Of a stretch of 64,000 nucleotides of DNA, positions 7,490 through 23,939 are shown piece after piece. The notes beneath the pieces were generated by a model, which searched no databases, was not told where the DNA came from, and was given only the letters and a program-made list of their open reading frames with translations. The stretch's first letter is position 1. The number at the start of each line of letters is the position of its first letter. Origin of the DNA: Mariprofundus sp. KV (GTDB lineage: Bacteria; Pseudomonadota; Zetaproteobacteria; Mariprofundales; Mariprofundaceae); assembly GCF_013387475.1 (NCBI RefSeq), contig NZ_VWNB01000002.1, forward strand, positions 62,001 through 126,000, written 5' to 3'. A program made the position numbers and the translations under genes.

Positions 7490-8662
7490 TTGAACACTTC
7501 TTCTGAGTTTCAGCTTCTTTTAGCACTCACGCACCCAAATCCTGAAATCAGCAAGAAGATGGCTGAACGCCTACTAGCTTCTGGGATCAAAATGCCAAGT
7601 TTTATTAAAATGGCCAAATGGCATCGACTTGTCCCACAAGTTTGTAGCAAATTAAAACAGTTGCAATACAAACCTTCTCCAGGAATCAGTTCAGAGATGA
7701 ATCAGCTAGAGTACAGAATTCGTAGAAAAGCGTTAAAACACCTTGCCATGTTGAGTAAAATCTCAAATCAATTAGACAAGCATAAAATCCGTTTTATTGT
7801 TTTAAAAGGCAGTGCACTTTCCCAGCTCATATATAACGATAGTGCTCAGCGCCAATCCAACGACATTGATATTCTGATTGATCGGCGTGATGTTGAAAAG
7901 GTTGAATCCATCCTGATTGAAAATCTTAATTTTTCACAGGGCGTTCCATTTTCAGGAGCGACAGCACGTCAGAAAGAGTTCATAGACTCTGTGCGTAAGG
8001 ATCGCGGCTATTTCCATCAACAGGATAGAATAATCCTGGAGGTTCATTGGGGTTTTACCGCTGTGGAGCACCCGATCAACAGATCGTTTCATGATCTATG
8101 GCAGAGCACAATAAAAGCAGAACTTCAACTTAATCAGACATTTCACACCCTGCCGATGAATCTGCTATGGCTCTATCAGTGCCAACATGGTGCTGAATCA
8201 GGCTGGTATCGACTTCGCTGGATCAATGATATCGCCATGTTACTGATCTATTACCCGCCTGACTGGGATAGCCTGCTGGAACAGGCCAGTGAATTCGGCA
8301 CCCGACGTAGCCTGATCGAAGGAGTCACACTTGCAGCCTCGGTCTACAACTTGCCGCTCCCTTCTCAGATCGAGGAACAGGGCAAGGCCGTGCAGATCGG
8401 CAATGAGATCGAAGAGGCCCGACTGTTTCTTACCCGTATGCAACTGCCATCCCCGATGGAATCAGCCAGAAGAAGTTTTCGCCACGCGCCGAAAACCAAA
8501 GCGATGCGCAATTTGCTGAAAAACATTCTCATTCAGCCCGGTGATTTTGAACGTATCCGACTACCCAACGGCCTCTTCTTTCTCTACTATCTCATCCGTC
8601 CATTCTCCCTGCTTGCCAGGCGGACGAAGTCCCAACGCCCCCGAGGAACAGCTACCCCATGA
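7490..8662 (+). CDS. Nucleotidyltransferase-fold protein, lasso-peptide tailoring candidate
   Basis: First gene of the plus-strand lasso operon. It has a nucleotidyltransferase-fold core: LKGSAL at 105-110 and the acidic NDIDILI at 124-130, matching the NTP_transf_5 type (PF14907). Related genes accompany an HPr-kinase-like gene in paeninodin/pseudomycoidin-type lasso clusters, where they are linked to tailoring of a phosphorylated C-terminus. The same pairing here suggests that role, but the reaction is inference. Start is TTG at 7490, chosen because AAAGGA sits six bases upstream. The stop overlaps the next start as ATGA. Confidence 0.8.
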   Translation: MNTSSEFQLLLALTHPNPEISKKMAERLLASGIKMPSFIKMAKWHRLVPQVCSKLKQLQYKPSPGISSEMNQLEYRIRRKALKHLAMLSKISNQLDKHKIRFIVLKGSALSQLIYNDSAQRQSNDIDILIDRRDVEKVESILIENLNFSQGVPFSGATARQKEFIDSVRKDRGYFHQQDRIILEVHWGFTAVEHPINRSFHDLWQSTIKAELQLNQTFHTLPMNLLWLYQCQHGAESGWYRLRWINDIAMLLIYYPPDWDSLLEQASEFGTRRSLIEGVTLAASVYNLPLPSQIEEQGKAVQIGNEIEEARLFLTRMQLPSPMESARRSFRHAPKTKAMRNLLKNILIQPGDFERIRLPNGLFFLYYLIRPFSLLARRTKSQRPRGTATP

Positions 8663-9570
8663 CCCCATTCCATTACCACGCATTCGGTCTGAATATCGAC
8701 AGCCATTTCGAACTGCCTGCACTGCCACAGGCAACAGACGATGCCTCTGCAGATGTCCGGATCCATACTGGCTCTGTATCGACTGAAGGACTGGATAATC
8801 CGAACAAGGCCACCCCATTCTACCAGAGTTCTGAGAACACCCTGTGGCTGAATGTTCCCGATATCGCCCGCTTCCTGGTCACCGACGGCAACAGCATCCT
8901 CGTCGACCCTTACCCCGGCAGTGATGAGCAGAGCATACGACTCTATCTGCTCGGCTCCTGTATCGGCACCATCCTGCACCAGCGTAAAACGCTGGTAATG
9001 CATGGCAATGCCGTCCGTTTCGGTGAGAAGTGCGTGATCTTTGCCGGTCATTCGGGGGCCGGAAAGTCGACACTGGCGGCGGCCTTCCATAAACGCGGTC
9101 ATGAGATTCTGGCCGATGATGTCTGCGCCATTGATGCACAAGGGCGCGTAGCGCCGGGGCTGCCACAATTGAAGCTCTGGCAGGATGCCGCCAATAAACT
9201 GGAGATCGATACAGCTGAACTTGATCGCATTCGACTGCAGGTAGAGAAATACACTTTCCCCCTGAAGCAGCCGGTAACCGAACAGCTGCCGGTGGCAGCG
9301 ATCTATATCCTCTCCAGCCATAACCTCGATGAGTTTGAGATTCAGCAGATCAAGGGCATGAAGAAGTTCAATCCACTGAAGAACAACACCTATCGCATGG
9401 GTATTCTCGAAGGGCTGGGGTTGAAGGCGGAGCATCTCGGCCTGTGCAGCAGACTAGCCAGTCGGGTGGATCTGGCCCGCATCACGCGACCGAATCATGG
9501 TTTCAAACTGGAGCAGCTGATCGAGATGATCTCGATCGATCTGCAGAAAAAGGGGATTGTTGCTGCATGA
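8659..9570 (+). CDS. HPr-kinase-like peptide serine kinase of a lasso cluster
   Basis: P-loop kinase of the HprK fold: Walker A GHSGAGKST at 130-138, then ILADDVCAI (150-158), the segment that in HprK holds the catalytic acidic residue. The N-terminal 120 residues are a separate, less conserved domain. No PTS or HPr gene is nearby, so carbon-catabolite control is unlikely. In the paeninodin pathway a homologous kinase phosphorylates the C-terminal serine of the precursor, and both intact precursors here end in serine. Coupled by ATGA overlaps to genes on both sides. Confidence 0.85.
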   Translation: MTPFHYHAFGLNIDSHFELPALPQATDDASADVRIHTGSVSTEGLDNPNKATPFYQSSENTLWLNVPDIARFLVTDGNSILVDPYPGSDEQSIRLYLLGSCIGTILHQRKTLVMHGNAVRFGEKCVIFAGHSGAGKSTLAAAFHKRGHEILADDVCAIDAQGRVAPGLPQLKLWQDAANKLEIDTAELDRIRLQVEKYTFPLKQPVTEQLPVAAIYILSSHNLDEFEIQQIKGMKKFNPLKNNTYRMGILEGLGLKAEHLGLCSRLASRVDLARITRPNHGFKLEQLIEMISIDLQKKGIVAA

Positions 9571-10457
9571 GCGAAGGTATCTTCTGGCTTGCCTCCTATC
9601 CAAAATCGGGCAACACTTGGACACGCGCCTTTATCGCCAATATCCGCCGCGAGGAGCCCGAGGAGGAGGTCGATATCAATGCCCTGCATACCGGTGCCAT
9701 CGCCAGCTGCCGCGGCTGGATTGATGAGGTGCTGGGCTTCGACTCGGCCGATCTCAGCCATGACGAGGTCGATCTCCTGCGCCCTGCTATTTACCGCTGG
9801 CATGCGCAGCAAGCAGATGATGGCGGCTATCACAAGGTACATGATGCCTACACACTCTTACCCAATGGCGAGGCACTGATTCCGGCCGATGCCACGGCCG
9901 GGGCTCTCTATATCATGCGTAACCCGCTCGATGTGGCGATCTCCTTTGCCCATCACAGCAACTGCAGTATCGATCAGTCAATCGAAAACATGGGCAGGCC
10001 AGACTTCTTCTTCTGTGGTAACACCCGCCGTATGACCAACCAGCTACGTCAGAAGCTGCTCTCCTGGTCCGCGCATGTGGAGAGCTGGGCGAATGCAGAG
10101 AAGATCGAGAAACTGATTGTGCGTTACGAGGATATGCGAAATGACTCACTAACCACATTCACCCGTATCTGTCGGTTTCTAAATCTACCTGCCGATGAGC
10201 ATTCAGTGCAGACCGCACTCGACAAATGCGCCTTCGACAAGCTTAAGCAGCAGGAGCAGGAGAAAGGGTTCTCCGAGAAAGCTCCCCACCATGAAAGTTT
10301 CTTTCGCAAAGGCAAGGTGGGCGACTGGCAGGATACACTGACGCCTGAACAGATCGAACGTGTCGTTGCCGATCATCATAAAGTGATGCAACGATTCGGC
10401 TATCTCGATGCTACCGGTCAACCGGTCACTGCACTGCCACTGGATCAGTTAGTCTGA
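9567..10457 (+). CDS. PAPS-dependent sulfotransferase in lasso operon
   Basis: Cytosolic Sulfotransfer_1-type enzyme. The 5'-phosphosulfate loop is SYPKSGNTW (10-18) and the 3'-phosphate-binding segment is RNPLDVAIS (118-126); the C-terminal RKGKVGDW motif that grips PAPS is present. Start at 9567 gives MSEGIFWLASYPKSG and overlaps the kinase stop as ATGA; an upstream in-frame start at 9444 would lie inside the kinase gene and is disfavoured. Acceptor unknown: a lasso-peptide Tyr or Ser is possible given the operon, a glycan is the alternative. Confidence 0.9.
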   Translation: MSEGIFWLASYPKSGNTWTRAFIANIRREEPEEEVDINALHTGAIASCRGWIDEVLGFDSADLSHDEVDLLRPAIYRWHAQQADDGGYHKVHDAYTLLPNGEALIPADATAGALYIMRNPLDVAISFAHHSNCSIDQSIENMGRPDFFFCGNTRRMTNQLRQKLLSWSAHVESWANAEKIEKLIVRYEDMRNDSLTTFTRICRFLNLPADEHSVQTALDKCAFDKLKQQEQEKGFSEKAPHHESFFRKGKVGDWQDTLTPEQIERVVADHHKVMQRFGYLDATGQPVTALPLDQLV

Positions 10458-10978
10458 TGGATTGGGATGCAGTCTCAGAGCTCTGCACCTCCTGCGGCAT
10501 GTGTTGTGATGGCACGCTGTTTGGCCATGCCAATATCAAAAATGATGATGACCTTAAACTGGCATCATCGCTTGGGCTCAATACGCTTCAGAAAAATGGC
10601 AGAGATACATTTGAACTTCCCTGCCACCATTTCAGTTCAAAGTGTACGATTTATGGAGAGAAGCGCCCCAATATTTGTGGTGCCTTTTTCTGTCAACCGA
10701 TTCGCGATATCAAAAATGGGCGTTGTGATCTGAGCGAAGCCAATGATCTTGTTAGCCGGGCAGTTAAACTCAGGGAGCAGTTTTCAGTAGCCTGTCTGGC
10801 TTATCCGGAATTTGCATCACAATCGATTTTCAAGATTCGCCGAGAGTTGCATTTGAATGGCATGTCTCAAGCGCAACAGGTAGGTATGAGAAAGAAATAT
10901 GCGCCGCTCTATCTGATTGGAGCACGACTGTTTCCTCTGCTTAATGCCATTGCCCCTCGGAGAAAAAAGAAGCTGTGA
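10457..10978 (+). CDS. YkgJ-like cysteine-cluster protein
   Basis: 173 residues. The N-terminus has CTSCGMCC (residues 10-17) followed by C in ELPCHHF, C in KCTIYGEKRPNIC and a further C in FFCQP, the pattern of the YkgJ/CxxCxxCC metal-binding family (zinc or Fe-S). The C-terminus is basic. It begins inside the stop of the sulfotransferase (TGATG), so it belongs to the lasso operon. No function is known for the family. In this context it may be a metal-dependent oxidoreductase or an accessory protein; that is inference only. Confidence 0.75.
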   Translation: MDWDAVSELCTSCGMCCDGTLFGHANIKNDDDLKLASSLGLNTLQKNGRDTFELPCHHFSSKCTIYGEKRPNICGAFFCQPIRDIKNGRCDLSEANDLVSRAVKLREQFSVACLAYPEFASQSIFKIRRELHLNGMSQAQQVGMRKKYAPLYLIGARLFPLLNAIAPRRKKKL

Positions 10979-10988
10979 ACTGTAGAAA

Positions 10989-12905
10989 ATGAGTACGATC
11001 CATGCCTCTCTTAACCTGATTGATCAACAGCCTGCTGGTTGTGAAAGAATTGAGAAGATGCTTGAGGCATCGGCTTACTGGAGGCCAGACGCCACGCATC
11101 AACTGAGTAGTTGCGATCATGCGTGCCGGATGGCGAGGGCCTCTCTGATTAATACCAGGCAATCCCGGCTTGAGAGTGTGCACCGTGATTCATCGGGTAA
11201 TATGATCACTGCCAATGCACGCCTTGATAATCGGGATGAATTGGCCGGGCAGCTCGAAATCCCGGCGAATGAGCTTGAGCAGCATGCCGATGGCATGTTG
11301 ATTTTACTGGCCTATAAACGTTGGGGAGAGGCATGCCCGAAACAGCTGCTCGGTGATTTTGCGTTTGTCATCTATGATGCTGTGCAGGATAAGGTTTTTG
11401 CGGCTCGGGATCATTTCGGCGTCAAGGTTCTGTTCTATACCCGAACCGAATCAGAGTGGCTTCTCAGCAACGAGCACAATGCTTTCTTTACATCCGGAGC
11501 TGTTAAGAAAGTGATCAAGGAGTCATGGCTGGTACAGCAACTATGGGCATTGAGAAGCAATCGCTTTGAATCACCTGTTAACGGAATTGAAACACTTCCT
11601 GCAGCTCACAGCATCACCCTGGACCGAACTGGTAATGCCAGCATCAGCCGCTACTGGGATCTTGAAGAGAGAGATGATTGGAACGGTTGGGATGATGCGT
11701 CGCTGATTGATGAGCTGAAGAGACGATTTGAACAGGCCGTCAGATCACGCCTGAACAGCGAATATCCGCTCGCCTCTGAGCTGAGCGAAGGCATCGATTC
11801 GAACGGTATCACAGGCTTTGCCGCCAGAGCTCTGGGAGAAGAGCCGCTTTATACACTCTCCTATGGCTGCATCGAACTGGATGATGACAACCGACATATT
11901 TGGGAAGCAACCTATCAGGACATCTACGAGATGCAGGCCATGCATGCGAACATTCAACCGATCTGGCGCAAACAGGAAAAAAACAATTCGCTTACTCTAC
12001 AGCAGCAGACGCTGAATCGGCACGCAGGAGTTCCTATGCCTGTGAAGGATGGAGCCCATATCTCCTATGGCCGGCTGGCTGCTAAGAAAGGTGTTCGAAC
12101 CCTGCTCTCGGGCTGGGGTGGTGATCACTGTGTCTCCACCTATGGTGATTTTTACGAAAGTGAACTATTGAATCAGGGAAAATTCATCACCTTGCATCGA
12201 CTGTTGCGGGAGAAAAGAGCTCGAGGGCGCAGTGGTAAACCTGCGAAAGCATGGGCTGGATTACTGTTAAAACATGCTATCCCCCCCCTCTTTCGCAGTT
12301 TGATGCGCAGAAAACGTGGTTTGGTCGATGGTCAGCATCACCTCGCACACTCGCACCCTTTAAAGCGAATCCATGTCGAGCGCTATCAACTTATGCAGAA
12401 GCAGCAAGAGTTCCTCAAACAGTATGAGCGCTACTCAGTAAAAGCGCACCATCAACGTGAGCTTTTTGATGTCGGTGTGGAGCCTCGTCTGGTGGAGTCC
12501 GAGTTGTGCAGCCGTATTTATCGAATTGAGTATCGATATCCTATGCTTGATGTTCGCCTTGTTGAGCTGGCCTACAATATGCCATCGCACCTCAAGGTAT
12601 ATCAGGGTATCGAACGCTATATGTACAGGAAGATTCTTGAGGGTGTCACAACCGAGCGTATTCGCTGGCGGGTAAAGGCTGATGTGCAACATCCCAGGTA
12701 TGATCACATAGACAACAATAACAGATCAGAAAGTCGAGAGAGCATTAAAGATCAAACAGATGATAGTGCGTTGGTAAGAGATTACCTTGATTTGGATGGA
12801 TCAAAGCAGGCGAAAGCCAGACGACTTCAAAAAGGCATCGAGTTGCTACTTGAAATTGAAGAACAACGGCAATCAGGGGAAATGGAGATCACTAAAGCTT
12901 CATAG
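10989..12905 (+). CDS. Asparagine-synthetase-like lasso macrolactam synthetase (protein C)
   Basis: Predicted to adenylate the Glu9 side chain of the precursor and close the isopeptide ring on Gly1. An N-terminal class-II glutaminase-like domain begins MSTIHAS, lacking the Cys2 nucleophile of true asparagine synthetase, as expected for lasso cyclases. The PP-loop is degenerate, SEGIDSNG at 265-272 instead of SGGLDSS, followed by LSGWGGDH (373-380). 638 residues. It is last in the plus-strand operon, 10 bases after the YkgJ-like gene. It faces the first precursor gene, 56 bases away, with only a weak hairpin between. Confidence 0.88.
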   Translation: MSTIHASLNLIDQQPAGCERIEKMLEASAYWRPDATHQLSSCDHACRMARASLINTRQSRLESVHRDSSGNMITANARLDNRDELAGQLEIPANELEQHADGMLILLAYKRWGEACPKQLLGDFAFVIYDAVQDKVFAARDHFGVKVLFYTRTESEWLLSNEHNAFFTSGAVKKVIKESWLVQQLWALRSNRFESPVNGIETLPAAHSITLDRTGNASISRYWDLEERDDWNGWDDASLIDELKRRFEQAVRSRLNSEYPLASELSEGIDSNGITGFAARALGEEPLYTLSYGCIELDDDNRHIWEATYQDIYEMQAMHANIQPIWRKQEKNNSLTLQQQTLNRHAGVPMPVKDGAHISYGRLAAKKGVRTLLSGWGGDHCVSTYGDFYESELLNQGKFITLHRLLREKRARGRSGKPAKAWAGLLLKHAIPPLFRSLMRRKRGLVDGQHHLAHSHPLKRIHVERYQLMQKQQEFLKQYERYSVKAHHQRELFDVGVEPRLVESELCSRIYRIEYRYPMLDVRLVELAYNMPSHLKVYQGIERYMYRKILEGVTTERIRWRVKADVQHPRYDHIDNNNRSESRESIKDQTDDSALVRDYLDLDGSKQAKARRLQKGIELLLEIEEQRQSGEMEITKAS

Positions 12906-12961
12906 AACAGGGCGATAATGGTGCACTATCAGCACGCTCATTCTGCAATTTTTTGAAGCTA

Positions 12962-13132
12962 TCAGGATGGACCGTAGGACGCCCCACCACCAGTTGAAAG
13001 AAACCTATGACTTTCAGTGGCGTCGACATAGGGCTTACCGTGGGTTTCTGAGCCATCAAGGCGAATCATGACCGGCGTATCCCACGACTGTAAGTTGGTC
13101 TCTTGCAAATCAGTTGCTTGATCAGTTTTCAT
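12962..13132 (-). CDS. Lasso peptide precursor 1 (A1)
   Basis: 56-residue RiPP precursor. GGAGG lies five bases before ATG 13132 (ATG 13135 is too close to it). The leader has Trp17-x-x-Pro20, replacing the Tyr-x-x-Pro that B1 proteins read. Thr30 is the conserved penultimate leader residue, then His31. Core starts at Gly32 (GKPYVDATE), so Glu40 is core position 9, giving a predicted Gly1-Glu9 nine-residue ring with a 16-residue tail ending SYGPS. Its encoded layout matches precursor 2 residue for residue in position. Too short and unusual to be called by length alone; the cluster context decides it. Confidence 0.85.
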   Translation of the reverse strand: MKTDQATDLQETNLQSWDTPVMIRLDGSETHGKPYVDATESHRFLSTGGGASYGPS

Positions 13133-13293
13133 CATACCCTCCGCATGGTAACGCAATCCAATCTGTTTTTTTTTTTGGCGTCAACCATGAAGTTTGATTA
13201 CCACAAAATAGAGTTCATGGCCGGGTCGGATATTCACCATCGATACAGATGCAGTAGCGCATCACCAGTGATGGCTGCATATTATTATGAGCG

Positions 13294-13557
13294 ATGCCGG
13301 TTCCTGTGGCCGATACAGCCTGGCTTGCCAAATCAGCTGGACAGCACCCTAGGAGCGGTCACCAGAAGCGTGATGAGAAACGTGAGCTGCGAGTGAATTT
13401 TGATAAGCTGCTGGATAGCAAACTGGTGCAGACCTACTTCGATGAGGAGAAGTTTCGTCAAATAGCGGGCGATATTCCTCCCAAAAGTTTACTGAGATCG
13501 CTTGAACTGCCGCATGAGCTCGAACGAAAGCTGAAGGAAGTGGAACAAATTTTGTGA
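13294..13557 (+). CDS. Hypothetical 87-residue protein between the precursors
   Basis: Small plus-strand ORF lying between two minus-strand precursor genes. The protein is strongly charged, mostly helical, and ends ELPHELERKLKEVEQIL. Codon use (ctg, gat, gag, cag) resembles the neighbouring genes, which argues for real coding. An in-frame TGA sits just before the ATG and no good SD is visible. I do not recognise it. It could be the intact C-terminal remnant of a larger gene or a small helical accessory protein. No homology claim is made. Confidence 0.4.
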   Translation: MPVPVADTAWLAKSAGQHPRSGHQKRDEKRELRVNFDKLLDSKLVQTYFDEEKFRQIAGDIPPKSLLRSLELPHELERKLKEVEQIL

Positions 13558-13595
13558 CCTTGCATGACAACAGGGCGCACTTGTGTTCGTGCACT

Positions 13596-13766
13596 CTAGG
13601 AGGGTCCGTAATTCTTTCCTCCTCCTCCAGAGAAGGAGGAATGACTCTCTGTTGGATCAACGAAGGTTTTTCCTTCCGTACCCGCGGAGTTCAGCAGTAT
13701 AAGCCGAGGCTGTTCCCATTGCCCAAGCTTCGATTGCAAAGTGGGTGTACTCTTCAGATCAGCCAT
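13596..13766 (-). CDS. Lasso peptide precursor 2 (A2)
   Basis: 56-residue RiPP precursor, co-linear with A1. ATG 13766 is preferred over ATG 13790 because AGGAG lies about eight bases upstream. Leader: Trp17-x-x-Pro20-Arg-Leu22, Thr30 at -2, Glu31. Core from Gly32 (GKTFVDPTE) with Glu40 at ring position 9, then SHSSFSGGGG and the terminal KNYGPS. Residues shared with A1: Trp17, Pro20, Gly27 region, Thr30, GK, aromatic at core 4, ATE/PTE, SH, and YGPS. The tail is Ser/Gly-rich. The C-terminal Ser is the expected substrate of the HprK-like kinase. Confidence 0.87.
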   Translation of the reverse strand: MADLKSTPTLQSKLGQWEQPRLILLNSAGTEGKTFVDPTESHSSFSGGGGKNYGPS

Positions 13767-13881
13767 ACTCTTTTCTCCTGATGTAATCATTATTGCTTTT
13801 CACTCTGATCCTTTCAAACATTGAGTCAACAGTTACTTCAATAATCTGAAGACAGGACGCTAAGGCCAACACCTATTCTAC

Positions 13882-13959
13882 CGCCCCCTCGGCAGGAGGC
13901 TTGAGTTGGTTCGCCTGACTACATGATAGCCTACCCGGTTAGGTCACCATCTAGGGGCG
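13882..13959. other. Possible structured RNA or regulatory element
   Basis: The 255-base gap between precursor 2 and the UnbU-UnbV gene (13791-14045) holds no ORF. Within it CGCCCC (13882-13887) can pair with GGGGCG (13954-13959), enclosing a smaller CCTA-CCCGGT-TAGG hairpin. This could be a structured leader for the downstream plus-strand gene. It does not match any riboswitch or tmRNA consensus I know, and six-base pairings arise by chance. Confidence 0.25.
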
Positions 13960-14045
13960 ATTCACCACCCAAGCGTAATCACACGTTGAATAACTTAAGT
14001 CAATTAAGCAGCCTCAACACACCCTGAAATATAGAGAGTCACTTG

Positions 14046-16919
14046 ATGATCGTAACCAAACTTGCAACTGCTGCCGTAAAGATTAAGGGAAACCTCTTTT
14101 CACTCAATCCGGCTATTATCCAACGCCACCAGTTGCTGAACCTGATCTTTCTATTCCTCATCGGGAAGGTACTTCTCAACTTTCCAATCAGCTGGCTGGA
14201 GATTGCTACAATCCTAGCCTTTGCTATTTGCATCGATCATCTTCTGATCTATATCGCCCACAGAAAAGTCGAATTCTTCTCCTATTCAGCGGTGAATACT
14301 GCGCTCGGCGTCATCTTTCTGCTACGCGCCACAGACCTCTCTATCTATATCCTTGTAGTCGCTCTGGCGATTGCCCAGAAACATTGGCTGCGCATCAATG
14401 GGCGCCATTTTCTCAACCCCTCCAATGTAGCCGTGGTGGCTGGCCTGCTCCTCTTCCCTTATGAGACCTATACTACTCCCGAACAGTGGGGTGGCATGTG
14501 GTGGCTTGGGGCGGCAATGACCCTGTTGGGTCTGCTGATCACCATGCGCGTAGGCCGGGTGTTAATCCCAATTGCATTCACTATCTCCTACCTCATCCTG
14601 ACTTATACCTTCATCACCAAGAATCCTACTGAGATCATGGCTACATTGATCTCGGGCAGCTTCCTGCTGTTTATCTATTTCATGCTAACCGACCCCCGTA
14701 CCACGCCGGATCGTCCGGGATACCAGATCCTCTATGCCACCTCGATTGCAACGTTGACCATTCTACTGGAACTGATGTTAGGCGCCCGCGATATCACCAT
14801 GTTTCTAGCCCTGTTTATTGTCAGTCTTTTTGTCCCGCTTATGCGCATTGGGCAACAGAAACAGTCTTATATATGGCAACATCTATTGGCAGCACTTGCT
14901 ACAGGCATCGCCGTGGTCGCCTTCTCACCCCTGAATACCCTGAATCATCTCCCCACAGCCTCCGCTAAAATTCAACACGGGACACCCTCGGCAGCTGTGC
15001 CCATCAATCCGGCTGCGACTGAAAAGGCTACCTGGGACCAACATCCCGAGTGGCATGAGAAAAGCTGGGATAAACCACACCTGGTTTCATCTCCATTGAC
15101 ACCACAGCCGCGCGATCACGGCTTTATCAGAATCGGAAATGCTCTGCCGGAACTGATTCCGAACGTCGAACGTAAACACTTCGGTTTTGACTTTAATTAC
15201 CATGCTCCGGTCAGCGCGGGTGATATCAATCACGATGGCCACCTCGACCTTGCTCTGGCCACCACAGGCACGTCCCTGACGATTCTGATCAACCGTGGCA
15301 ACGGAACATTTTTCGATGCCACGGCCCAGCTCTTCGATAAGATACCACACGGCTCCATCGACCAGATAGCACTGGCCGATGTTGATTCCGACAGCTATCT
15401 CGACCTGATACTCTCGTTCAACCCGTATGAAGCCGGAATCGCTCCTCCCAATCGAATCTATCGCTTCAACCCCGATAGCAAACATTTCGAAGCAAGTACA
15501 ACCTTCCCTAGCCCTGTGCACGCCACCATTGGCGGATATGCCCTGATCGACATCAACCATGACCGCTTTCTCGATCTCTATATCTCAATAGCACACAACT
15601 GGCACAAACAGGAAAACCCTCCCTTTGCATTCATGCAGTCCGATGGTGAGCCCAACCAGTTCTGGGTGAGCAGTGCGGATGGATGGAAGGAGAAAAAAAC
15701 CGACTATTTTCCTCAGCCTGACGAAAAGCATGCAAGCATGACCGCCATGTTCACCGACCTGAACAACGATGGACACCCCGACTTCCTGCTCGGCAACGAC
15801 CTCCAGCCCGACCTGAGCTACCGGATGGATGGATCCGGCCATTTTACCCTGATTCCGAAACAGCAGATCGAATACAATGCTTTCAACAGTATGGGCTATA
15901 TGGGGATCGATGCCGACAATGACGGCAAGCTGGAAATATGGGAAAACACGATTTCCCGCGACGTACTCTTGCGGCGGACCCGCTATGGAGAGCTGTTCAC
16001 TTCAGCATTCAATACGCTGAATGGTACTGTGGCTGTTAAAAATATTGAGCGCGCATTCCTCAATGGTGAGCAAAACTGCAACCGCTTCGCTTTGCCGACC
16101 GACCGTGCACTGTGCGAAGAGATTCTGGTTGGCGCGCATGCCAAGCGATCGGGAAATAGAAAGTTATGCGACAGCATCGTCAATATGGAACGCCGCTATT
16201 TCTGCCGCTACCGGGTGAATAACCCCGCTTATGCCATTGCCAGCCCCGCCCGTTTCAAACGCGATGTCGAGCTATTTCCACGCAAAGTAAAGAAGAATAT
16301 TCTGCTCAAACTGGATACTGAGGGACGCTACAGAGATGTACTGGGCAATGATAACGCCGCCCTGACCGGCTGGTCATGGGCGGCCTACCCTTTCGACTTC
16401 GACAATAATGGTTTTCAGGACATCTTTATCACCACGGGCATGGCAATCATCAATGGCCAGGAACCATCAGCCCTGCTCATGAATTACAGCAGGCCCGGAA
16501 CACCTTCCCTGATTAACAAAGCATCCTCTTACGGTGTTGACTTTATGGATGAGGGACGCGGGGTAATTGCGGCCGATCTCGATGGCGATGGCGATGGCGA
16601 TCTGGTGGTGATGAATCTCTATACGGCCCCCATCTTTCTCGAAAACCGTTTTGGCGGTGATGCCATCAAGGTGGAACTGCGATCCCGCCACGGCAACTAC
16701 TATGGTATCGGCAGTCGCGTGGAGCTGCATACCAGCCGCGGTATACAGCTGCGCGAAATGGCTGTGGGTGGGGTGTGGGACAGCATGCAGCCGCAACAAC
16801 TGCACTTTGGCATTGCAGATGGAGAATCGATTGCAAAGCTGGTGATACGCTGGCCTTATGGTGGAACAACCGAATATAAAGGACTCTCTGCAAACCACCG
16901 CTACATCATTTATGATTAG
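14046..16919 (+). CDS. UnbU-UnbV fusion: RnfD/NqrB-like membrane domain with FG-GAP repeats and ASPIC/UnbV domain
   Basis: 957 residues from ATG 14046 (numbers here count from a TTG three bases earlier). Residues 30-300 are about nine membrane helices with RnfD/NqrB-like hallmarks: NGRHFLNPSNVAV (119-131) and FMLTDPRTTP (213-222). A linker at 300-390 leads to calcium-binding-type FG-GAP/VCBS repeats (GDINHDGHLDL, ADVDSDSYLDL, TDLNNDGHPDF, ADLDGDGDGDL). The last 90 residues look like an ASPIC/UnbV domain. A four-cysteine insertion lies near 690-745. UnbU and UnbV are separate neighbours in enediyne cassettes; here they are one protein. The C-terminal part is probably periplasmic. Function unknown. 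Confidence 0.8.
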   Translation: MIVTKLATAAVKIKGNLFSLNPAIIQRHQLLNLIFLFLIGKVLLNFPISWLEIATILAFAICIDHLLIYIAHRKVEFFSYSAVNTALGVIFLLRATDLSIYILVVALAIAQKHWLRINGRHFLNPSNVAVVAGLLLFPYETYTTPEQWGGMWWLGAAMTLLGLLITMRVGRVLIPIAFTISYLILTYTFITKNPTEIMATLISGSFLLFIYFMLTDPRTTPDRPGYQILYATSIATLTILLELMLGARDITMFLALFIVSLFVPLMRIGQQKQSYIWQHLLAALATGIAVVAFSPLNTLNHLPTASAKIQHGTPSAAVPINPAATEKATWDQHPEWHEKSWDKPHLVSSPLTPQPRDHGFIRIGNALPELIPNVERKHFGFDFNYHAPVSAGDINHDGHLDLALATTGTSLTILINRGNGTFFDATAQLFDKIPHGSIDQIALADVDSDSYLDLILSFNPYEAGIAPPNRIYRFNPDSKHFEASTTFPSPVHATIGGYALIDINHDRFLDLYISIAHNWHKQENPPFAFMQSDGEPNQFWVSSADGWKEKKTDYFPQPDEKHASMTAMFTDLNNDGHPDFLLGNDLQPDLSYRMDGSGHFTLIPKQQIEYNAFNSMGYMGIDADNDGKLEIWENTISRDVLLRRTRYGELFTSAFNTLNGTVAVKNIERAFLNGEQNCNRFALPTDRALCEEILVGAHAKRSGNRKLCDSIVNMERRYFCRYRVNNPAYAIASPARFKRDVELFPRKVKKNILLKLDTEGRYRDVLGNDNAALTGWSWAAYPFDFDNNGFQDIFITTGMAIINGQEPSALLMNYSRPGTPSLINKASSYGVDFMDEGRGVIAADLDGDGDGDLVVMNLYTAPIFLENRFGGDAIKVELRSRHGNYYGIGSRVELHTSRGIQLREMAVGGVWDSMQPQQLHFGIADGESIAKLVIRWPYGGTTEYKGLSANHRYIIYD

Positions 16920-17279: not shown

Positions 17280-17345
17280 ATGGCTGCCAGTGAGCCCTTT
17301 GCGGATCAATATTCTGACTATTCCCCGGATTCCGGCTGGGTTTAA
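17280..17345 (+). CDS. Possible 21-residue acidic Tyr-containing peptide ORF
   Basis: Second tiny plus-strand ORF in the same gap, with AGGAG nine bases before the ATG. The peptide is acidic and has Tyr next to Asp (QYSDYSPDSG), then ends GWV. Tyr flanked by acidic residues is typical of tyrosine-sulfation sites, and two sulfotransferases are in the island, but any link is speculation. An overlapping ATG at 17276 gives only five codons. Confidence 0.2.
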   Translation: MAASEPFADQYSDYSPDSGWV

Positions 17346-18583
17346 CAACCAGTGCGTACAACTTTCCCGTAAGTTGAAAAAAGGTCACCATCCAGTGCCG
17401 GGGCATCCATGATCAGTTGATGCTTCTCCACATCCCACTGCAGATTACCTTCCAGCAGACAGGGCCCATCCGGCGTAACCGCCACATCCCATCCGGAAAC
17501 GGGAAGATCCGGAACAAGAGAGTGGGCCTCTAAACAAAGATCGACTGCCTCCTGCCAGAACGGCAGAACCTTGCCTTCGAGCCGGTCGATCAATTGACGA
17601 TAGTCACCGGACTGATCCGGATGACGACTGAACAGCTTGCCCGATGCCAGCTGGATATTCATACAGTAGCTGGCCCTTGGCACATCGCTGTACGGCACCT
17701 CAAGCAGTGCGAACATTGCCTCGGGCTGTCCTTTCAGCAAGCCGCTGACAAGACGCAGCGTCACCAGCCGTCCGGTAGTGCACAGGGATGAAATCCGAGG
17801 ATGGTTTTGCAGCATCGGTTGCAACAGGTAGTCGTAATCAAGCAGACGCAGGCCAACCTCGGCCAGGATCAATTCCGGCTCGATCAAGCTCACATTTCGA
17901 TCGGTATGGAGCTGGTACTCACCAGTATTCCGGTCAAAATGCAGCGCCATACAGCCGACACTGTTGCGTGCAGCATTCGGTTTAAGAAACAGCGCGCGCT
18001 CCTGAAACAGAAACTCGGGATCGACCCTCTTCCCTCTTGGCAACAACGTCACTGTCGGCACCGTGGCAATGCCCGCTGCTGCCATTTTCTTGGTGAAGGC
18101 ATGCTTATCCCACAGCAGGTCGATCGTCTCACTGCTGACACCCGCTGCAAACACGGCATGCCAGTTCTCGGCCGTATTGGAGTAGATATAGTGCATCAAC
18201 TGACTACGCGACTTCCGCCACAGGCCGTACATATAGTAGTAGCGCGGCGGGATGCCGTGCGGAATGATCAGACTCAGTAGATCGACCACCTGCCGCCACA
18301 ACGGCAGCTCGCACGGATAGGTCCGGTAGGCCGCTTCCCTCCCCTTCAGGCGGTGATAGCTCATCTTCCAGGCGAAAAAAAGCAGCCACGACAACCAATT
18401 GTAGAGGCCGATCAGTGCCCACTGCCAGCGAGGCAGATGCGGCCAGGCATTCAGGAAGAGATGCCGCTGCAACTGCACAGCACGGCCTTGCCCTGGTAGC
18501 AGAAAACGCCAGCTGACCATGGTGAAGGGCTGGCGATTATAGAGCGCACGACTGTTTCTGAGTTTGTACCACAGTGCTTTCAC
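17342..18583 (-). CDS. Sugar-transfer-associated ATP-grasp protein, copy 1
   Basis: 413 residues. N-terminal hydrophobic/amphipathic region (about 25-90: SWRFLLPGQGRAVQL, then a Trp-rich helix) suggests membrane association. The ATP-grasp core has ALFLKPN for ATP binding and the metal-binding GWDVAVT...LLEGNLQWDV near the C-terminus, as in the ATPgrasp_ST family (PF14397). Paralogous to the gene at 20239-21435, sharing the SWRFLLPGQGRAVQL block. Likely ligates a carboxylate to an amine or other nucleophile using ATP. It starts within the stop of the fusion gene (ATGA) and is last in the B1-B2-exporter operon. Confidence 0.75.
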   Translation of the reverse strand: MKALWYKLRNSRALYNRQPFTMVSWRFLLPGQGRAVQLQRHLFLNAWPHLPRWQWALIGLYNWLSWLLFFAWKMSYHRLKGREAAYRTYPCELPLWRQVVDLLSLIIPHGIPPRYYYMYGLWRKSRSQLMHYIYSNTAENWHAVFAAGVSSETIDLLWDKHAFTKKMAAAGIATVPTVTLLPRGKRVDPEFLFQERALFLKPNAARNSVGCMALHFDRNTGEYQLHTDRNVSLIEPELILAEVGLRLLDYDYLLQPMLQNHPRISSLCTTGRLVTLRLVSGLLKGQPEAMFALLEVPYSDVPRASYCMNIQLASGKLFSRHPDQSGDYRQLIDRLEGKVLPFWQEAVDLCLEAHSLVPDLPVSGWDVAVTPDGPCLLEGNLQWDVEKHQLIMDAPALDGDLFSTYGKVVRTGC

Positions 18584-20229
18584 CAGGCAGATGGTTCCAC
18601 TACTTCACGATCCAAACTCCATGCCACACTTAATCGGCACTCCGCCAGCATCGCCTTTGCCTCATCGCTGAGCAGCTTCTGCGCAATCCCCTTCATGCGT
18701 TCGATCTGCGCTTCAGACAGGTAATCGGCATAGCCACCAACCTTCCCTTTGCGCACCTTCATCATTTCGGGGTTGCCTACCGTTTTCGGCATACCGGCAT
18801 GCCCGGCCACCTTCTCGGCCTGCCGCATCTTCTCGAAGCTGGAATCGGCAACGGCAGCCTGCACATCCGCATCGTCGGCATAGAGATTCAGATGCGCCAG
18901 CAAGCGCTTGAGCTCACCCGCCGTATCACCGTGCAATCCCTCGTAGCTGAGCAGATACCTGCGCCGCCAGCCGCCATCTTCAGTCCGGCGATTCAGGTAA
19001 CGGCAGTAGCGTTGCAGGCTACCCTTTTCGGCATCGATAAAGGCGTCCATATCGCCATCAAAAGCCCCCAGCTTCTGCTGCTGGAAATAGTCGGAGACCA
19101 CCACATCGGGAATCGAGCGCAGCAACAGGATATCGCCTTCATTGCACTGGGTGTTCACAGCATGGCTGGCCAACAGTAGCGGCATATCGCTTATATGGCC
19201 GAACTGGTAGTGCTCACACCCCTTCAAACCGGCATGCGCATTGGGGATGATCGTGAACAGGCTTTGCATATCCACCTGTACATGCAGTGAAAAGTGTCGA
19301 TTGAAATAGTTCGCCAGCAGCGTACGTAGCCATGTACGGCCGCACTTGGGAAAGGAGTGGATCGTTGCTGCAGGTCTTGGCTCGGGTAGAACACTGTTTA
19401 CAGCAACCTTCGCCGCCCGGTTGCGTAGAAAACGGTCGGGATCGCCACTGTTGCTCGGCACCACCTTGAAGTGATGGAAGCCCATGGCTGCCAGCTTGTC
19501 GACATCGAAAAAGGTGTGGCCGACATCGGGCCTGGGCATCCACGCCTTCGAGCAGGATTTGGAGTAGTCCTTTCCCCAGTGGGTTTGCGAAATCGCCGCA
19601 TAACAGGTGCGCGCCGGACAGTTGTAGGCACAGTTGGCATTGGCGAAGAGCACGATGCGATGCTTCTCCGGCAGGCTTTCGAGGAAGGCATCGTCGTCAT
19701 TCTTATCCATCGGAATCACGACACGATCATAGATTGATAACGCCCGCTCCACCTTCTCCAACGTATTGAGATGCTTGATCAGGCTCGCCTTGAGCAGATA
19801 GTCGGGAAATTCCTGGCGAATTCTCTTCGCCAATTCGTCATTGGTGCAGACAATGGCGTTGCCTGGCCTATGGAAACGTTTCAGGAAATGACGATTGGCT
19901 AGAAAAACCTCCTCATCAAAGTGGTGGCCGGTCAGCGTAAAACTCACCCCTTTTCCATGATTGTTCAGAGTCTCGATCTGATGATCGGTAAGGCTATGTT
20001 CCAGGTTGTAACTGCGGCCGCCATAGAAGCGCGAAGGGTATACTGCATTGCCGAATACCGAATCGATCTGGTCGATATCGAGATAGGGATAGTAAATCTT
20101 GAGATAATCAATCGCATCGGCTGCCGGAACAATCTTGCGCGACGAGACCTCGAAACGGTAGTCAGGATTACGAAACATGCCGTGATTGGCAGCGAAATCG
20201 ATCACATTGGTTCCTACGTAGCTTTCCAC
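18580..20229 (-). CDS. Fusion of cysteine-bearing N-terminal domain (U32/TIM-barrel-like) with sulfotransferase
   Basis: 549 residues. Residues 1-280 form an unrecognised alpha/beta domain whose core NANCAYNCPARTCY has Cys200, Cys204 and Cys209, with Cys226 following, a likely Fe-S or zinc site; overall order loosely recalls U32-peptidase-like TIM barrels. Residues 288-549 are a Sulfotransfer_1 domain: PSB loop HSFPKCGRTW (291-300), 3'-phosphate segment RSIPDVVVSDYF (371-382) and C-terminal RKGKVGGY. Nine bases after ATP-grasp copy 2 and ATGA-coupled to copy 1. Possibly modifies the lasso peptide before or after sulfation; the N-terminal activity is unknown. Confidence 0.75.
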   Translation of the reverse strand: MESYVGTNVIDFAANHGMFRNPDYRFEVSSRKIVPAADAIDYLKIYYPYLDIDQIDSVFGNAVYPSRFYGGRSYNLEHSLTDHQIETLNNHGKGVSFTLTGHHFDEEVFLANRHFLKRFHRPGNAIVCTNDELAKRIRQEFPDYLLKASLIKHLNTLEKVERALSIYDRVVIPMDKNDDDAFLESLPEKHRIVLFANANCAYNCPARTCYAAISQTHWGKDYSKSCSKAWMPRPDVGHTFFDVDKLAAMGFHHFKVVPSNSGDPDRFLRNRAAKVAVNSVLPEPRPAATIHSFPKCGRTWLRTLLANYFNRHFSLHVQVDMQSLFTIIPNAHAGLKGCEHYQFGHISDMPLLLASHAVNTQCNEGDILLLRSIPDVVVSDYFQQQKLGAFDGDMDAFIDAEKGSLQRYCRYLNRRTEDGGWRRRYLLSYEGLHGDTAGELKRLLAHLNLYADDADVQAAVADSSFEKMRQAEKVAGHAGMPKTVGNPEMMKVRKGKVGGYADYLSEAQIERMKGIAQKLLSDEAKAMLAECRLSVAWSLDREVVEPSAW

Positions 20230-20238
20230 TCTATCTCC

Positions 20239-21435
20239 CTATCCGTATGCCCGAATCAAATCGCTTTCCAGCGCAGCCGTGCCGGTTGCCACCTGATGGG
20301 CGGCGACACCCCAATTGATATTACCTTCCAGCAGCTTCACATCCCCATTACTGATCACTACATCCCAGCCGATAGCGTTCAGATCCTCAAAGTGATGATG
20401 CGCGTTAGTGCATAAACTCGCCACTTTGGACCATTGCGGCAAGCACCAGCCGATAAGGTCGCTCAATTCATCCCGTACCGATGGATGTGCCGCCATTAGA
20501 GAGCCCTGCCCTACATCGACCATCAGCATGCGCACACCACCCTGCTTAGCAGGCAGTTCCAGATTGGCCATCAACACCTCTGGAACGCCATCAATCAGGG
20601 CTGAAATCACCCGCAGCGTGGCCAGCTGATCCGATCCGGTAATTGCCGTCAGATCCGGGGCATTTTGCAATAGCGGCTGGACAAGATAGTCGACCGCAGT
20701 CAGGCAACCCCGTACATGATCGATTATCGCAGATCGTCCTTCGATGCGTTCATTGCCAACCTGAAGTTGAAGTCTGTATCTCTCTTTATCAGCATCATAA
20801 TCGAGCACCATGCATCCCTGTGCCCTGGCGCCACATCTCGGTTTCAGAAACAGTGAACGATCCGTAAAAAGTTGCTGTTCACTCACCTCATCTCCTTGCT
20901 GCAGTAATGCAATGGTCTCAACCGTGGCGATGCCCTGCTCGACCATTGCACGAGCAAAATCGTGTTTATCGGTCATCAGATGCAGGCTCTGTTCACTCAG
21001 TTCCGGAGACATCAGCCAGTGCCAGTGCGGCAGTTCCTGCTCGTAGATGTATAACAGCCACTGCCGTTCAGGCCGTTTATAGAGGCCATAACGATAGTAG
21101 TCGCGCGGCGCGATGCCATGTGCAAAGGTGGCCAACATTAAACCAAGCAATTGCCTGCCGAATGTGACGCCTTCCGATTCAGCAGCCCGCCTCCACTGCC
21201 TCTTGAGATTACGGTAGAGCATAAGCCAGCCCCAAAAAAGCCACCATGTCCCTGCACTGTAAAGAAAGATCAGCAGCCACTGCCAGCGCGGCAGAACCGG
21301 CCAGGCGCCTAGCAACACCTTGCGATGCAGCTGCACAGCCCGCCCCTGCCCCGGCAGTAGAAATCGCCAGCTGATTAGGCAGTGCGGCAGACGACGTGTT
21401 AATACCCGTTGTTTCAGTGTCTGCCAGCGGCTCAT
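20239..21435 (-). CDS. Sugar-transfer-associated ATP-grasp protein, copy 2
   Basis: 398 residues, paralogue of the 17342-18583 product. Shared blocks: SWRFLLPGQGRAVQLHR near residue 25, GIAPRDYYRYGLYKRPE, SLFLKPRCGARAQGCM and the metal site GWDVVISNGDVKLLEGNINWGV. Start ATG overlaps the exporter stop as ATGA. Two divergent copies around a sulfotransferase fusion imply two related ligation steps or two substrates, for instance the two precursor cores. Acceptor and carboxylate are unknown. Confidence 0.75.
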   Translation of the reverse strand: MSRWQTLKQRVLTRRLPHCLISWRFLLPGQGRAVQLHRKVLLGAWPVLPRWQWLLIFLYSAGTWWLFWGWLMLYRNLKRQWRRAAESEGVTFGRQLLGLMLATFAHGIAPRDYYRYGLYKRPERQWLLYIYEQELPHWHWLMSPELSEQSLHLMTDKHDFARAMVEQGIATVETIALLQQGDEVSEQQLFTDRSLFLKPRCGARAQGCMVLDYDADKERYRLQLQVGNERIEGRSAIIDHVRGCLTAVDYLVQPLLQNAPDLTAITGSDQLATLRVISALIDGVPEVLMANLELPAKQGGVRMLMVDVGQGSLMAAHPSVRDELSDLIGWCLPQWSKVASLCTNAHHHFEDLNAIGWDVVISNGDVKLLEGNINWGVAAHQVATGTAALESDLIRAYG

Positions 21436-23159
21436 GTGGCGGGCACGTCACCACCACTCAGTACAATGCGCTGCTTCACATGGGCGATGGTGGTTTCACG
21501 ATGGGCTATGATCAATATGGTCAGCTTACCATCGAGTTGCAGAAGTGCCTGGTGAATCTTCTGTTCGTTGTCATGATCGAGCGCGCTGGTCGCTTCATCG
21601 AGGATCAATAGCTGAGGTTTAGAAAACAGTGCCCGTGCCAGCGCCAGTCGCTGGCGTTCACCACCGGAGAGGCGAATGCCGCGATCACCGATCACCGTAT
21701 CCAGTCCATCCGGTAGTGCGCGCACAAAATCAGCCGCAGCAGCCATTTCCAGTGCCTGCCATATCTCTGATTCTGGAACGCCATCCGCTACCCATTCCAG
21801 ATTGGCGCGAATCGTATCGTGGAAGAGAAACACTTCCTGGGTGATATAAGCAACACCCCGCCGCCATGCCATACGTTGCTCGCCGCTCAGGGGGGTATCG
21901 TCACAATAGATTGTACCGGAATCGGGCACCAGCAGGCCGGCAATCAGGTCTGCAAGCGTCGATTTTCCAGCTCCTGATGGGCCGGTCAGTGCAACCGTAG
22001 CATTCTTTGCAATATCCAGCGTGAGATTATCAATCACCTGCCGGTTTCCCCTTTCGTAGCGAAAACAGATATGCTCCAACCTGATCTGTCGCTCCAGCCT
22101 AGGCGGCTGCAGATCGGCACCAGGCTTTGTTTCAGCAGCCGCATCGCACGCCTGCATCAGGCGCTGCACATCCTCAAATGCGGGCAGCTGATGCAGCAGA
22201 CGTTGATAGGAGGATTGAATGGATGCCAGCTGCGGCATCAGGCGCGAGAAGATCAGTAACAGCAACAACAGCGTAGCCAGTGAGACTGAAAACCACGCCA
22301 GAGCAAAGTAGAAGCAGATCGAGAAGGAGATCACACCACCGATTGTGGTCACCAGCTGAGTTGTGCCGTTGATCCGCGTCATACGTACCGACTGCGCCTC
22401 CATCATCCGGCTCTCTTCGTCCATTCGGGCCAGATAGAGCGATTCGCTACCATAACTCTTAATCATCTTCAGACTGCCCAGTTGCTCGGCAAACATCTGC
22501 ATCAGATTCTTGCCACCACCCAACTGCATCTGGCCGGAACGCAACACAAGCCGGTTCAGCGGCAGCAGAAGTGCCATCAGCGCCAGTGCACAGGTGATGG
22601 CAAGCAGGGTCATATGCCATGACAGCAGCAGTGACAGACCGACATAGACGGCAACAAGGATCAACTGACCTGTCAGCCCAAGGATCGTGTTGGCGCACTG
22701 CCCCAGTGTGGAGACCTGCTGCAGCAGGCTATACATGAAATCACTCATTTTACGGCTGATAAAGAACTGCCAGCGACTATGTAGCAGCGAATCGTAGAGA
22801 TCGTGACGAAGCCTGCAGGTATAGGCTTGCTGTACTGCCACCGTCGCGACATTCTGCCAGTAATTCATAGCCGCCATCAGCGATACGATCAGCACATAAC
22901 AGAGCAGAATTGAGGGCAGTGTCAGCTCTACTCCGATTGCTGTAAAAATCCGGGAAATAATTCCGGAAAATTCGCTCGTCATCCCTGATCCTACATCCAG
23001 CCCGACCAACTGCAGCAACGGGATCAACAATAGCAGCCCGACACCAGCGGTTAATCGCTGTGCCAGCATCAGCATAAACAGCAGCGAGATACGGGCAGGA
23101 GAGAAACGGTAAAAAGCTGAGACTGCGGCCTTCAATGCCCGCCGTTGATCAAGATGCAT
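21432..23159 (-). CDS. Lasso peptide ABC exporter (protein D)
   Basis: Half-size type-I ABC exporter: six transmembrane helices in residues 1-300, then an ATPase domain with Walker A GPSGAGKST, signature RLSGGERQRLALARAL and Walker B LLILDEATSALD. No N-terminal C39 peptidase is present, which fits lasso exporters whose leader is removed by B2. ATG 23159 is preferred; it overlaps the B2 coding end by 11 bases. It lies between B2 and the ATP-grasp gene, in the usual B1-B2-D order of lasso clusters. Confidence 0.87.
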   Translation of the reverse strand: MHLDQRRALKAAVSAFYRFSPARISLLFMLMLAQRLTAGVGLLLLIPLLQLVGLDVGSGMTSEFSGIISRIFTAIGVELTLPSILLCYVLIVSLMAAMNYWQNVATVAVQQAYTCRLRHDLYDSLLHSRWQFFISRKMSDFMYSLLQQVSTLGQCANTILGLTGQLILVAVYVGLSLLLSWHMTLLAITCALALMALLLPLNRLVLRSGQMQLGGGKNLMQMFAEQLGSLKMIKSYGSESLYLARMDEESRMMEAQSVRMTRINGTTQLVTTIGGVISFSICFYFALAWFSVSLATLLLLLLIFSRLMPQLASIQSSYQRLLHQLPAFEDVQRLMQACDAAAETKPGADLQPPRLERQIRLEHICFRYERGNRQVIDNLTLDIAKNATVALTGPSGAGKSTLADLIAGLLVPDSGTIYCDDTPLSGEQRMAWRRGVAYITQEVFLFHDTIRANLEWVADGVPESEIWQALEMAAAADFVRALPDGLDTVIGDRGIRLSGGERQRLALARALFSKPQLLILDEATSALDHDNEQKIHQALLQLDGKLTILIIAHRETTIAHVKQRIVLSGGDVPAT

Positions 23160-23658
23160 GTGCAATCTCCTGATCTTTGATTGTCGCGAACAGGCCCGGC
23201 GATACAAAAGTGGAAACGATCGTGAAGGTGCGATGACCATCACGACCGGTAACTATCCATGGCCCCACAGAGAGCCAGGCGTGTGCTTTCAATGCATCCT
23301 GCACCCCATCACCTCTTGTCACCCCCAGATGGATCACATAAGGGATGCCGTATCGACGAAGCAGTATGCTGGCCATACAGGCCTGCACAAGGCATTTAGA
23401 CTCCCACGGCGTATAAGATGCCGCGAGTTCAACAATACGACCGATACGCCAGGCCTGCTGTTTCTGCTCATCGCTTGCGATAGCAGCCAGCTGCAGGTTG
23501 CTGCAATGCTCGCCGAGCATCGGTGCCATCTTGCGAAACGGCAACAGCAGCAAAGCCGCCCGGATCGGGCCGCTGATTAACCATATCCAGAAGAACCAGA
23601 ACTTCTCCCTGATCGGCATGCGCAAGAAGGTTCCGCATTTGCGCAGCAGGGCGTTCAC
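23149..23658 (-). CDS. Lasso leader peptidase B2 (transglutaminase-like)
   Basis: 170-residue cysteine peptidase expected to cut after the leader at Thr30-x31. The catalytic Cys is in SKCLVQACMAS (about 85-95), the His in KAHAWLSV (around 123), and the acidic partner probably in the segment that follows. N-terminal residues 15-40 are hydrophobic, as often in this family. Stands between B1 (two bases apart) and the exporter. A split B1/B2 organisation matches many lasso clusters. Confidence 0.87.
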   Translation of the reverse strand: MNALLRKCGTFLRMPIREKFWFFWIWLISGPIRAALLLLPFRKMAPMLGEHCSNLQLAAIASDEQKQQAWRIGRIVELAASYTPWESKCLVQACMASILLRRYGIPYVIHLGVTRGDGVQDALKAHAWLSVGPWIVTGRDGHRTFTIVSTFVSPGLFATIKDQEIAHAS

Positions 23659-23660
23659 GA

Positions 23661-23939
23661 TCAGGCGATCTCGATTACCTTACTGCTGACCATCTCATCA
23701 AGAAAGGCGAGCACCTCGCTGCGGCACTGCTCCTCTTCCACATCAAAACGACTGAGCAGTTCTGTGCAGATCGCATCCACGCTCATCTCCTGCTCGAGCA
23801 GATCCCAGATCTGAGAACCTACTCCATTCAGGCCATAGTAGTTGCCTTCGTTGACGCTCATCATCACCGTCTCACCATCCATATCGCTGTGCACTATCTC
23901 CGGATTACGGCGAATAACATTATCCATCTGCAAACTCAT
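23661..23939 (-). CDS. Lasso leader-recognition protein B1 (PqqD-like)
   Basis: 92-residue RRE of the PqqD fold that binds the Trp17-x-x-Pro20 leader region and hands the precursor to B2 and the cyclase. Recognisable features: MDGETVMMSVNEGNYYGLN, GSQIWDLLEQ and the winged-helix segment ending in SSKVIEIA. First gene of the minus-strand lasso operon, 35 bases downstream of the fcl stop, so it might be co-transcribed with gmd-fcl. Confidence 0.87.
   Translation of the reverse strand: MSLQMDNVIRRNPEIVHSDMDGETVMMSVNEGNYYGLNGVGSQIWDLLEQEMSVDAICTELLSRFDVEEEQCRSEVLAFLDEMVSSKVIEIA

Follow-up and report, generated by a model that had tools for sequence, protein, structure and literature searches.

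The window analysed here, a stretch of 64,000 nucleotides from Mariprofundus sp. KV (contig NZ_VWNB01000002.1, positions 62,001 to 126,000), contains at positions 7490-23939 a complete lasso-peptide cluster in which B1, B2, the cyclase, the exporter and two precursors are accompanied by a large set of candidate tailoring genes. The genes of this island probably make up a single pathway whose product is a class II lasso peptide with several modifications, and from the sequence we infer, as the best reading, that this product would be sulfated and, on the Ser at its C-terminus, phosphorylated and perhaps glycosylated. The parts of this reading are held with different strength: one lasso pathway with kinase, nucleotidyltransferase and sulfotransferase tailoring is highly likely, action of the ATP-grasp proteins and of the sulfotransferase 2 (ST2) fusion in that pathway is probable, and membership of the UnbU-UnbV fusion is somewhat favoured.

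Because distantly related bacteria carry the same tailoring kit next to their lasso genes, the island is probably one real pathway that makes a heavily modified peptide. The source class is represented in our genome set by one order with 78 genomes; two genomes of the source genus (G051 and G052) carry near-identical loci (L008) that keep the order nucleotidyltransferase, kinase, sulfotransferase 1 (ST1), YkgJ-like protein and cyclase, with identities of 37, 77, 74, 53 and ~58-59%, respectively. Another class is represented by G078, the sole genome of its order and class in the set, in which a single contig (locus L015) bears a precursor, the ST2 fusion, a B12-radical-SAM gene, YkgJ, B2, B1, ST1, two kinases, a second precursor, the cyclase, an ATP-grasp gene, the exporter and a nucleotidyltransferase. 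The G078 ST2 fusion is 65% identical to that of the window over its full length, and the ATP-grasp gene is placed between the cyclase (C) and the exporter (D), separated from C by 11 bp and running into D. The position of this ATP-grasp gene, and the presence of the same fused sulfotransferase in an orthologous cluster, tie the rarer genes to the lasso core. The B12-binding radical SAM protein directly follows the ST2 fusion in G078 (L015, 2228-4252), and the window cluster is without one.

Beyond the phylum the pattern recurs. When the ST2 alignment was run against 84,980 species, three loci came back, each on a contig with a lasso cyclase, a count that is a lower bound given the strict scan patterns. 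The contig JABHIW010000016.1 (40,978 bp) of the planctomycete Ca. Scalindua encodes a full-length ST2 fusion (42%), a kinase, an ST1-kinase fusion, a nucleotidyltransferase-methyltransferase and a lasso cyclase; in the last-but-one of these, at L018 13680-15200, the PF14907 nucleotidyltransferase is fused to a methyltransferase domain. On two Bacteroidota contigs the N-domain of the ST2 fusion stands alone (47-48%), together with the kinase, ST1, B1, B2, cyclase, exporter and nucleotidyltransferase. When the cyclase was the only query, a contig profile search confirmed no relative, and plasmid searches found none for the cyclase or ATP-grasp, the ST2 query matching just unrelated stand-alone sulfotransferases. 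The original prediction of a multiply modified lasso peptide is thus supported by co-conservation of the tailoring genes with the lasso core: the fused sulfotransferase, YkgJ, ST1, the kinase or kinases, the nucleotidyltransferase and, in G078, ATP-grasp accompany it in relatives, whereas in G078 UnbU-UnbV is on another contig and ATP-grasp is single-copy.

The precursors are consistent with this pathway. In A1 the predicted leader ends in ...QSWDTPVMIRLDGSETH and is followed by the core GKPYVDATESHRFLSTGGGASYGPS; in A2 the predicted leader end is ...GQWEQPRLILLNSAGTE and the core GKTFVDPTESHSSFSGGGGKNYGPS. Both have a WxxP leader motif (SWDTP and QWEQP), Thr at -2, a putative ring from Gly1 to Glu9 and a C-terminal Ser, and the calculated lasso masses before tailoring are 2522.18 Da (A1) and 2481.12 Da (A2). 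With cleavage placed by the same kind of prediction, the precursors of G078 are AKTTVAPIESGTAVGPS and GKIYSTKEATGYFGIVGVS and those of the Bacteroidota are GGSHSWTKEDAHYYDSGGGGGGYYS and GGGHPWTKEDAHYTDPYGS; the Scalindua precursor is probably GGMNMKNQEKTTGGVSYNNS. A [WY]xxP leader and a C-terminal Ser are common to the precursors of five lineages (the window, G078, two Bacteroidota and Scalindua), all of which except Scalindua retain Thr at -2, and the C-terminal Ser is present in all seven intact precursors found. Kinases of the paeninodin type phosphorylate this residue (PMC9266682). In G051 and G052 the precursor seems to be cut short next to a reverse transcriptase, with a contig end nearby. 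A reverse transcriptase gene (L008, 1792-2694, minus strand) overlaps the lasso cyclase gene at its end, and a maturase-like reverse transcriptase lies further out; a related degenerate reverse transcriptase (34% identity) is found near the Scalindua lasso cyclase, in a different phylum (L036, 6829-7278).

Protein families were assigned by Pfam and NCBIfam profile matches to the window proteins, and all of the main open reading frames are open and intact, with their catalytic motifs kept. Of the complete lasso core that had been proposed, the cyclase, B1, B2 and ABC exporter were found where they had been placed; the existence of two precursors held, and we add their exact placement, on the minus strand in the interval between the cyclase and UnbU-UnbV. 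Likewise, profile matches and the intact kinase motif bear out the proposed nucleotidyltransferase, HPr-kinase-like enzyme, two sulfotransferases (one fused), YkgJ-like protein, ATP-grasp pair and UnbU-UnbV fusion. The proposed arrangement in two divergent operons gives way to four transcription directions or units. Specifically, the plus-strand genes at 7490-12905 run PF14907 nucleotidyltransferase, HPr-kinase-like, ST1, YkgJ-like and cyclase (spacings of -4, about -4, -1 and +10 bp), and the minus-strand genes at 23939-17342 run B1, B2, ABC exporter, ATP-grasp 1, ST2 fusion and ATP-grasp 2 (+2 bp, an overlap, -4, +9 and -4 bp), a tight packing that favours common pathway membership. Between them are the two minus-strand precursors and the plus-strand UnbU-UnbV gene, which is divergent from precursor A2. 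Two starts are corrected here: ST1 most likely begins at ATG 9567, so that it overlaps the stop of the kinase gene, and the exporter at ATG 23159.

Features of the lasso-peptide island, with positions in the window and the matches on which assignments are based
Feature	Position	Strand	Details
Nucleotidyltransferase, PF14907 (putative pseudomycoidin PsmN-type)	7490..8662	+	168.5 bits; KG...DIDIL motif
HPr-kinase-like peptide kinase (paeninodin type)	8659..9570	+	PF07475 32.1 bits, under 33.3 cut-off
Sulfotransferase 1, stand-alone	9567..10457	+	PF00685 119 bits
YkgJ-like CxxCxxCC protein	10457..10978	+	PF03692 26.6 bits; orthologs in the lasso clusters of L008 and L015
Lasso cyclase C, asparagine-synthetase-like	10989..12905	+	NF033535 286 bits, 6e-85; PF00733 103 bits
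Precursor A1	12962..13135	-	Predicted core GKPYVDATESHRFLSTGGGASYGPS; start codon 13135 or 13132
Second-cyclase C-terminus remnant, between precursors	13294..13557	+	29% identity, E 2e-9 to L008 cyclase; 1e-6 to window cyclase
Precursor A2	13596..13766	-	Predicted core GKTFVDPTESHSSFSGGGGKNYGPS
UnbU-UnbV fusion: NQR2/RnfD-like membrane domain, FG-GAP repeats, UnbV/ASPIC	14043..16919	+	PF03116 43 bits; PF07593 45.9 bits
ATP-grasp protein 2 (PF14397, ATPgrasp_ST)	17342..18583	-	54.3 bits, cut-off 31.4; 4 bp overlap with ST2 stop
Fusion: U32-like four-cysteine barrel (N, about 1-260) and sulfotransferase 2 (C, about 289-522)	18580..20229	-	PF00685 66.6 bits
ATP-grasp protein 1 (PF14397, ATPgrasp_ST)	20239..21435	-	80.3 bits, cut-off 31.4; 4 bp overlap with exporter stop
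ABC exporter D	21432..23159	-	ABC_tran and ABC_membrane
Lasso B2 leader peptidase	23149..23658	-	NF033537 90.2 bits, cut-off 33
Lasso B1 (PqqD-like leader-binding RRE)	23661..23939	-	NF033536 96.1 bits, cut-off 80

The kinase and both sulfotransferases keep their characteristic motifs. In the kinase, H115, K136 and D153-D154 are invariant in seven homologs, and this His-Lys-Asp-Asp motif is required in paeninodin-type kinases (PMC9266682). Both sulfotransferases keep the 5'-PSB, 3'-PB and RKGxxGxW motifs, which in ST1 include SYPKSGNTW, RNPLDVAIS and RKGKVGDW for binding of 3'-phosphoadenosine-5'-phosphosulfate (PAPS).

No Pfam or NCBIfam model matched the N-terminal domain of the ST2 fusion. 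An AlphaFold2 model of it built from 11 sequences has a mean predicted local distance difference test score (pLDDT) of 83.8 and a predicted template modelling score (pTM) of 0.84, and its top Foldseek match in the PDB is the U32 protein MK0906 (5d88; E 2.4e-7, template modelling scores 0.59/0.62), with the runner-up at 7e-4. Four cysteines (C200, C204, C209 and C226) are invariant in 11 of 11 sequences; around C204-C226 the confidence of the model is low. The U32 proteins UbiU and UbiV bind a 4Fe-4S cluster via four cysteines and have a role in O2-independent hydroxylation (PMC6747719). PDB sequence searches with the U32-like and ATP-grasp alignments gave nothing useful. Outside lasso clusters the N-domain gene adjoins a Sulfotransfer_3 gene in G138 (L016), and in five genomes sampled from a Bacteroidota group (L037-L041) it is mostly found with Sulfotransfer_3, CysD, a CysN-adenosine-5'-phosphosulfate (APS) kinase and a TPS/GLUG exoprotein, loci that constitute a possible sulfated-exoprotein system. 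The occurrence of the U32-like domain next to sulfotransferases and PAPS-synthesis genes outside lasso loci indicates that it tracks sulfation, not lasso chemistry per se.

The ATP-grasp proteins and UnbU-UnbV are rarer. No RimK- or graspetide-type ATP-grasp domain was present among the Pfam/NCBIfam matches, which gave just PF14397 and a weak STM4014-family match. UnbU-UnbV, a single open reading frame encoding 958 aa, occurs in 2 of the 398 genomes of the phylum, that of the window and G078 (67% identity), the same two that have the ST2 fusion. The G078 copy is on contig C32, ~140 bp from the contig end, and the lasso cluster opens contig C93; a comparison of the two contigs for adjacency showed no end overlap or shared k-mer. 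Two candidate interpretations were rejected: that UnbU-UnbV is unrelated, on the grounds that its sole other copy among the 398 genomes is in G078, and that ATP-grasp is a polysaccharide gene, on the position of the G078 copy between C and D.

These assignments suggest a route to the product. By homology, B1 would bind the leader, the HPr-like kinase would, like that of paeninodin, phosphorylate the linear precursor at its C-terminal Ser, and the PF14907 enzyme would add a hexose or nucleotide to the phosphate as in pseudomycoidin. ST1 would presumably work on the end that the kinase modifies, because the two genes are adjacent nearly everywhere and are fused in Scalindua. B2 would remove the leader, C would close the Gly1-Glu9 ring and D would export the peptide, again by homology. 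More speculatively, the U32-like four-cysteine barrel would prepare the group to be sulfated, O2-independent hydroxylation being one way to do so, and ST2 would then sulfate that second site; the ATP-grasp proteins would ligate an amino acid or other carboxylate, amide- or ester-linked, to the tail or its sugar; and UnbU-UnbV would be a membrane-anchored extracytoplasmic or envelope partner with a function in display, binding or immunity.

Several observations weigh against this reading. The best NCBIfam model for the cyclase, NF033535, scores below its cut-off of 525 (PF00733 is above its own), and the pyrophosphate loop is SEGxDSNG, as compared with SGGxDSS, in both the window cyclase and that of L008 (2645-4558). 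ATP-grasp is found in two lineages in total, G078 being the only relative with a copy; UnbU-UnbV is likewise known from two lineages, and it is unproven that the G078 copy adjoins the lasso genes. As to the N-domain, PF01136 (the U32 family) did not match it even at E 10, and its cysteine spacing, CX3CX4CX16C, is unlike the recurrent U32 pattern CX6CX15CX3/4C (PMC6747719).

The most far-reaching possibility for the U32-like domain is that it defines a sulfation module of a new kind. It would be an Fe-S enzyme installing an acceptor by O2-independent hydroxylation, or otherwise activating one, for the fused or adjacent sulfotransferase; its substrates would be lasso peptides in several phyla and, elsewhere, secreted TPS/GLUG exoproteins, and here it would yield the first lasso peptides both phosphorylated and sulfated at installed sites. 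As a whole this possibility is rather unlikely, and U32-dependent hydroxylation is itself a tentative idea to which we give only slightly more weight. A substrate-docking or Fe-S structural partner that is not a hydroxylase, with sulfation on existing Ser, Thr or Tyr residues or on the sugar and no hydroxylation, has close to an even chance: the domain is beside or fused to sulfotransferases in every context found, including the exoprotein loci, its sequence and cysteine spacing are far from those of known hydroxylases, and the predicted cores are already rich in hydroxyl residues. However, the four invariant cysteines and many invariant polar residues in the barrel suggest catalysis, and the four-cysteine U32 proteins UbiU and UbiV do take part in hydroxylation (PMC6747719).

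It is improbable that this is an ordinary phosphorylated or glycosylated lasso cluster whose ATP-grasp, fused sulfotransferase and UnbU-UnbV genes are part of a surrounding sulfated exopolysaccharide locus and adjoin the lasso genes by chance. A polysaccharide locus does lie downstream (28168-63995); its genes include four further sulfotransferases, a carbamoyltransferase and, for PAPS supply, an APS kinase; the name of PF14397 is 'sugar-transfer associated'; and in G051 and G052, which have a lasso half-cluster, neither the ST2 fusion nor UnbU-UnbV has a match anywhere in the genome. But in G078 the ATP-grasp gene is within the lasso operon and the flank consists of hemC/hemB-type housekeeping genes, not polysaccharide genes, and in the window ST2 and ATP-grasp overlap the exporter operon. 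A decaying, rearranged and non-producing locus, which the second-cyclase remnant between A1 and A2, the SEGxDSNG loop, the two-direction layout and the apparent truncation of the L008 precursor next to the reverse transcriptase might indicate, is very improbable given intact main reading frames with kept catalytic motifs, an SEG loop that recurs in the L008 cyclase at 59% identity, the pattern that a tolerated variant would give, and two intact precursors of near-identical core design.

A single pathway for a multiply modified lasso peptide remains our preferred reading, and it extends what has been described. As had been stated, kinase and nucleotidyltransferase tailoring is already known, and these enzymes and sulfotransferases have been described for lasso clusters (PMC8498205, PMC4289311, PMC9266682), the sulfotransferase genes in the first two of these papers. 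A 2026 review of lasso modifications covers many types, sulfation not among them, and the openly licensed literature searched contains no report of a sulfated lasso peptide or of a lasso link of ATP-grasp, UnbV or U32-like proteins. Within that literature, the earlier claim that a lasso cluster with an ATP-grasp pair and UnbU-UnbV is undescribed therefore stands; it had left the fused N-domain unassigned, and this domain is the most novel element of the cluster. In the openly licensed literature searched, the combination of ATP-grasp, UnbU-UnbV and the U32-like/sulfotransferase fusion is absent; we regard the cluster as a real and conserved variation on the lasso pathway that is new. Complete operons, two defined cores and exact masses make sulfation, ATP-grasp ligation and the role of the fusion testable by expression and mass spectrometry, and with its conservation across phyla what had been an odd gene becomes a defined tailoring module.

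Among known systems, paeninodin-type clusters share the split B1/B2, the HPr-like kinase with His-Lys-Asp-Asp and a precursor ending in Ser; to these the window adds two sulfotransferases, YkgJ, the U32-like fusion, the ATP-grasp pair and UnbU-UnbV. The pseudomycoidin cluster also has a kinase and a nucleotidyltransferase, whereas the nucleotidyltransferase of the window, assigned by its PF14907 profile match, is a separate first gene of the kinase-sulfotransferase-YkgJ-cyclase operon and further tailoring genes are present. Anaerobe and Firmicute clusters with an HPr kinase and a sulfotransferase (PMC4289311; PMC8498205) have the same two predicted tailoring types, with one sulfotransferase, with sulfation there predicted, and with no mention of a U32-like fusion, ATP-grasp or UnbU-UnbV. 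The N-domain resembles U32 proteins and UbiU-UbiV in its predicted barrel and four conserved cysteines but differs in lacking a PF01136 match, in cysteine spacing, in being shorter and in being fused or linked to sulfotransferases. Finally, both window ATP-grasp proteins score over the Pfam cut-off for the ATPgrasp_ST family (PF14397) of polysaccharide loci and keep its EGN motif; in contrast to those, they lie inside lasso operons and have an N-terminal segment with a conserved RFLLPGQ.

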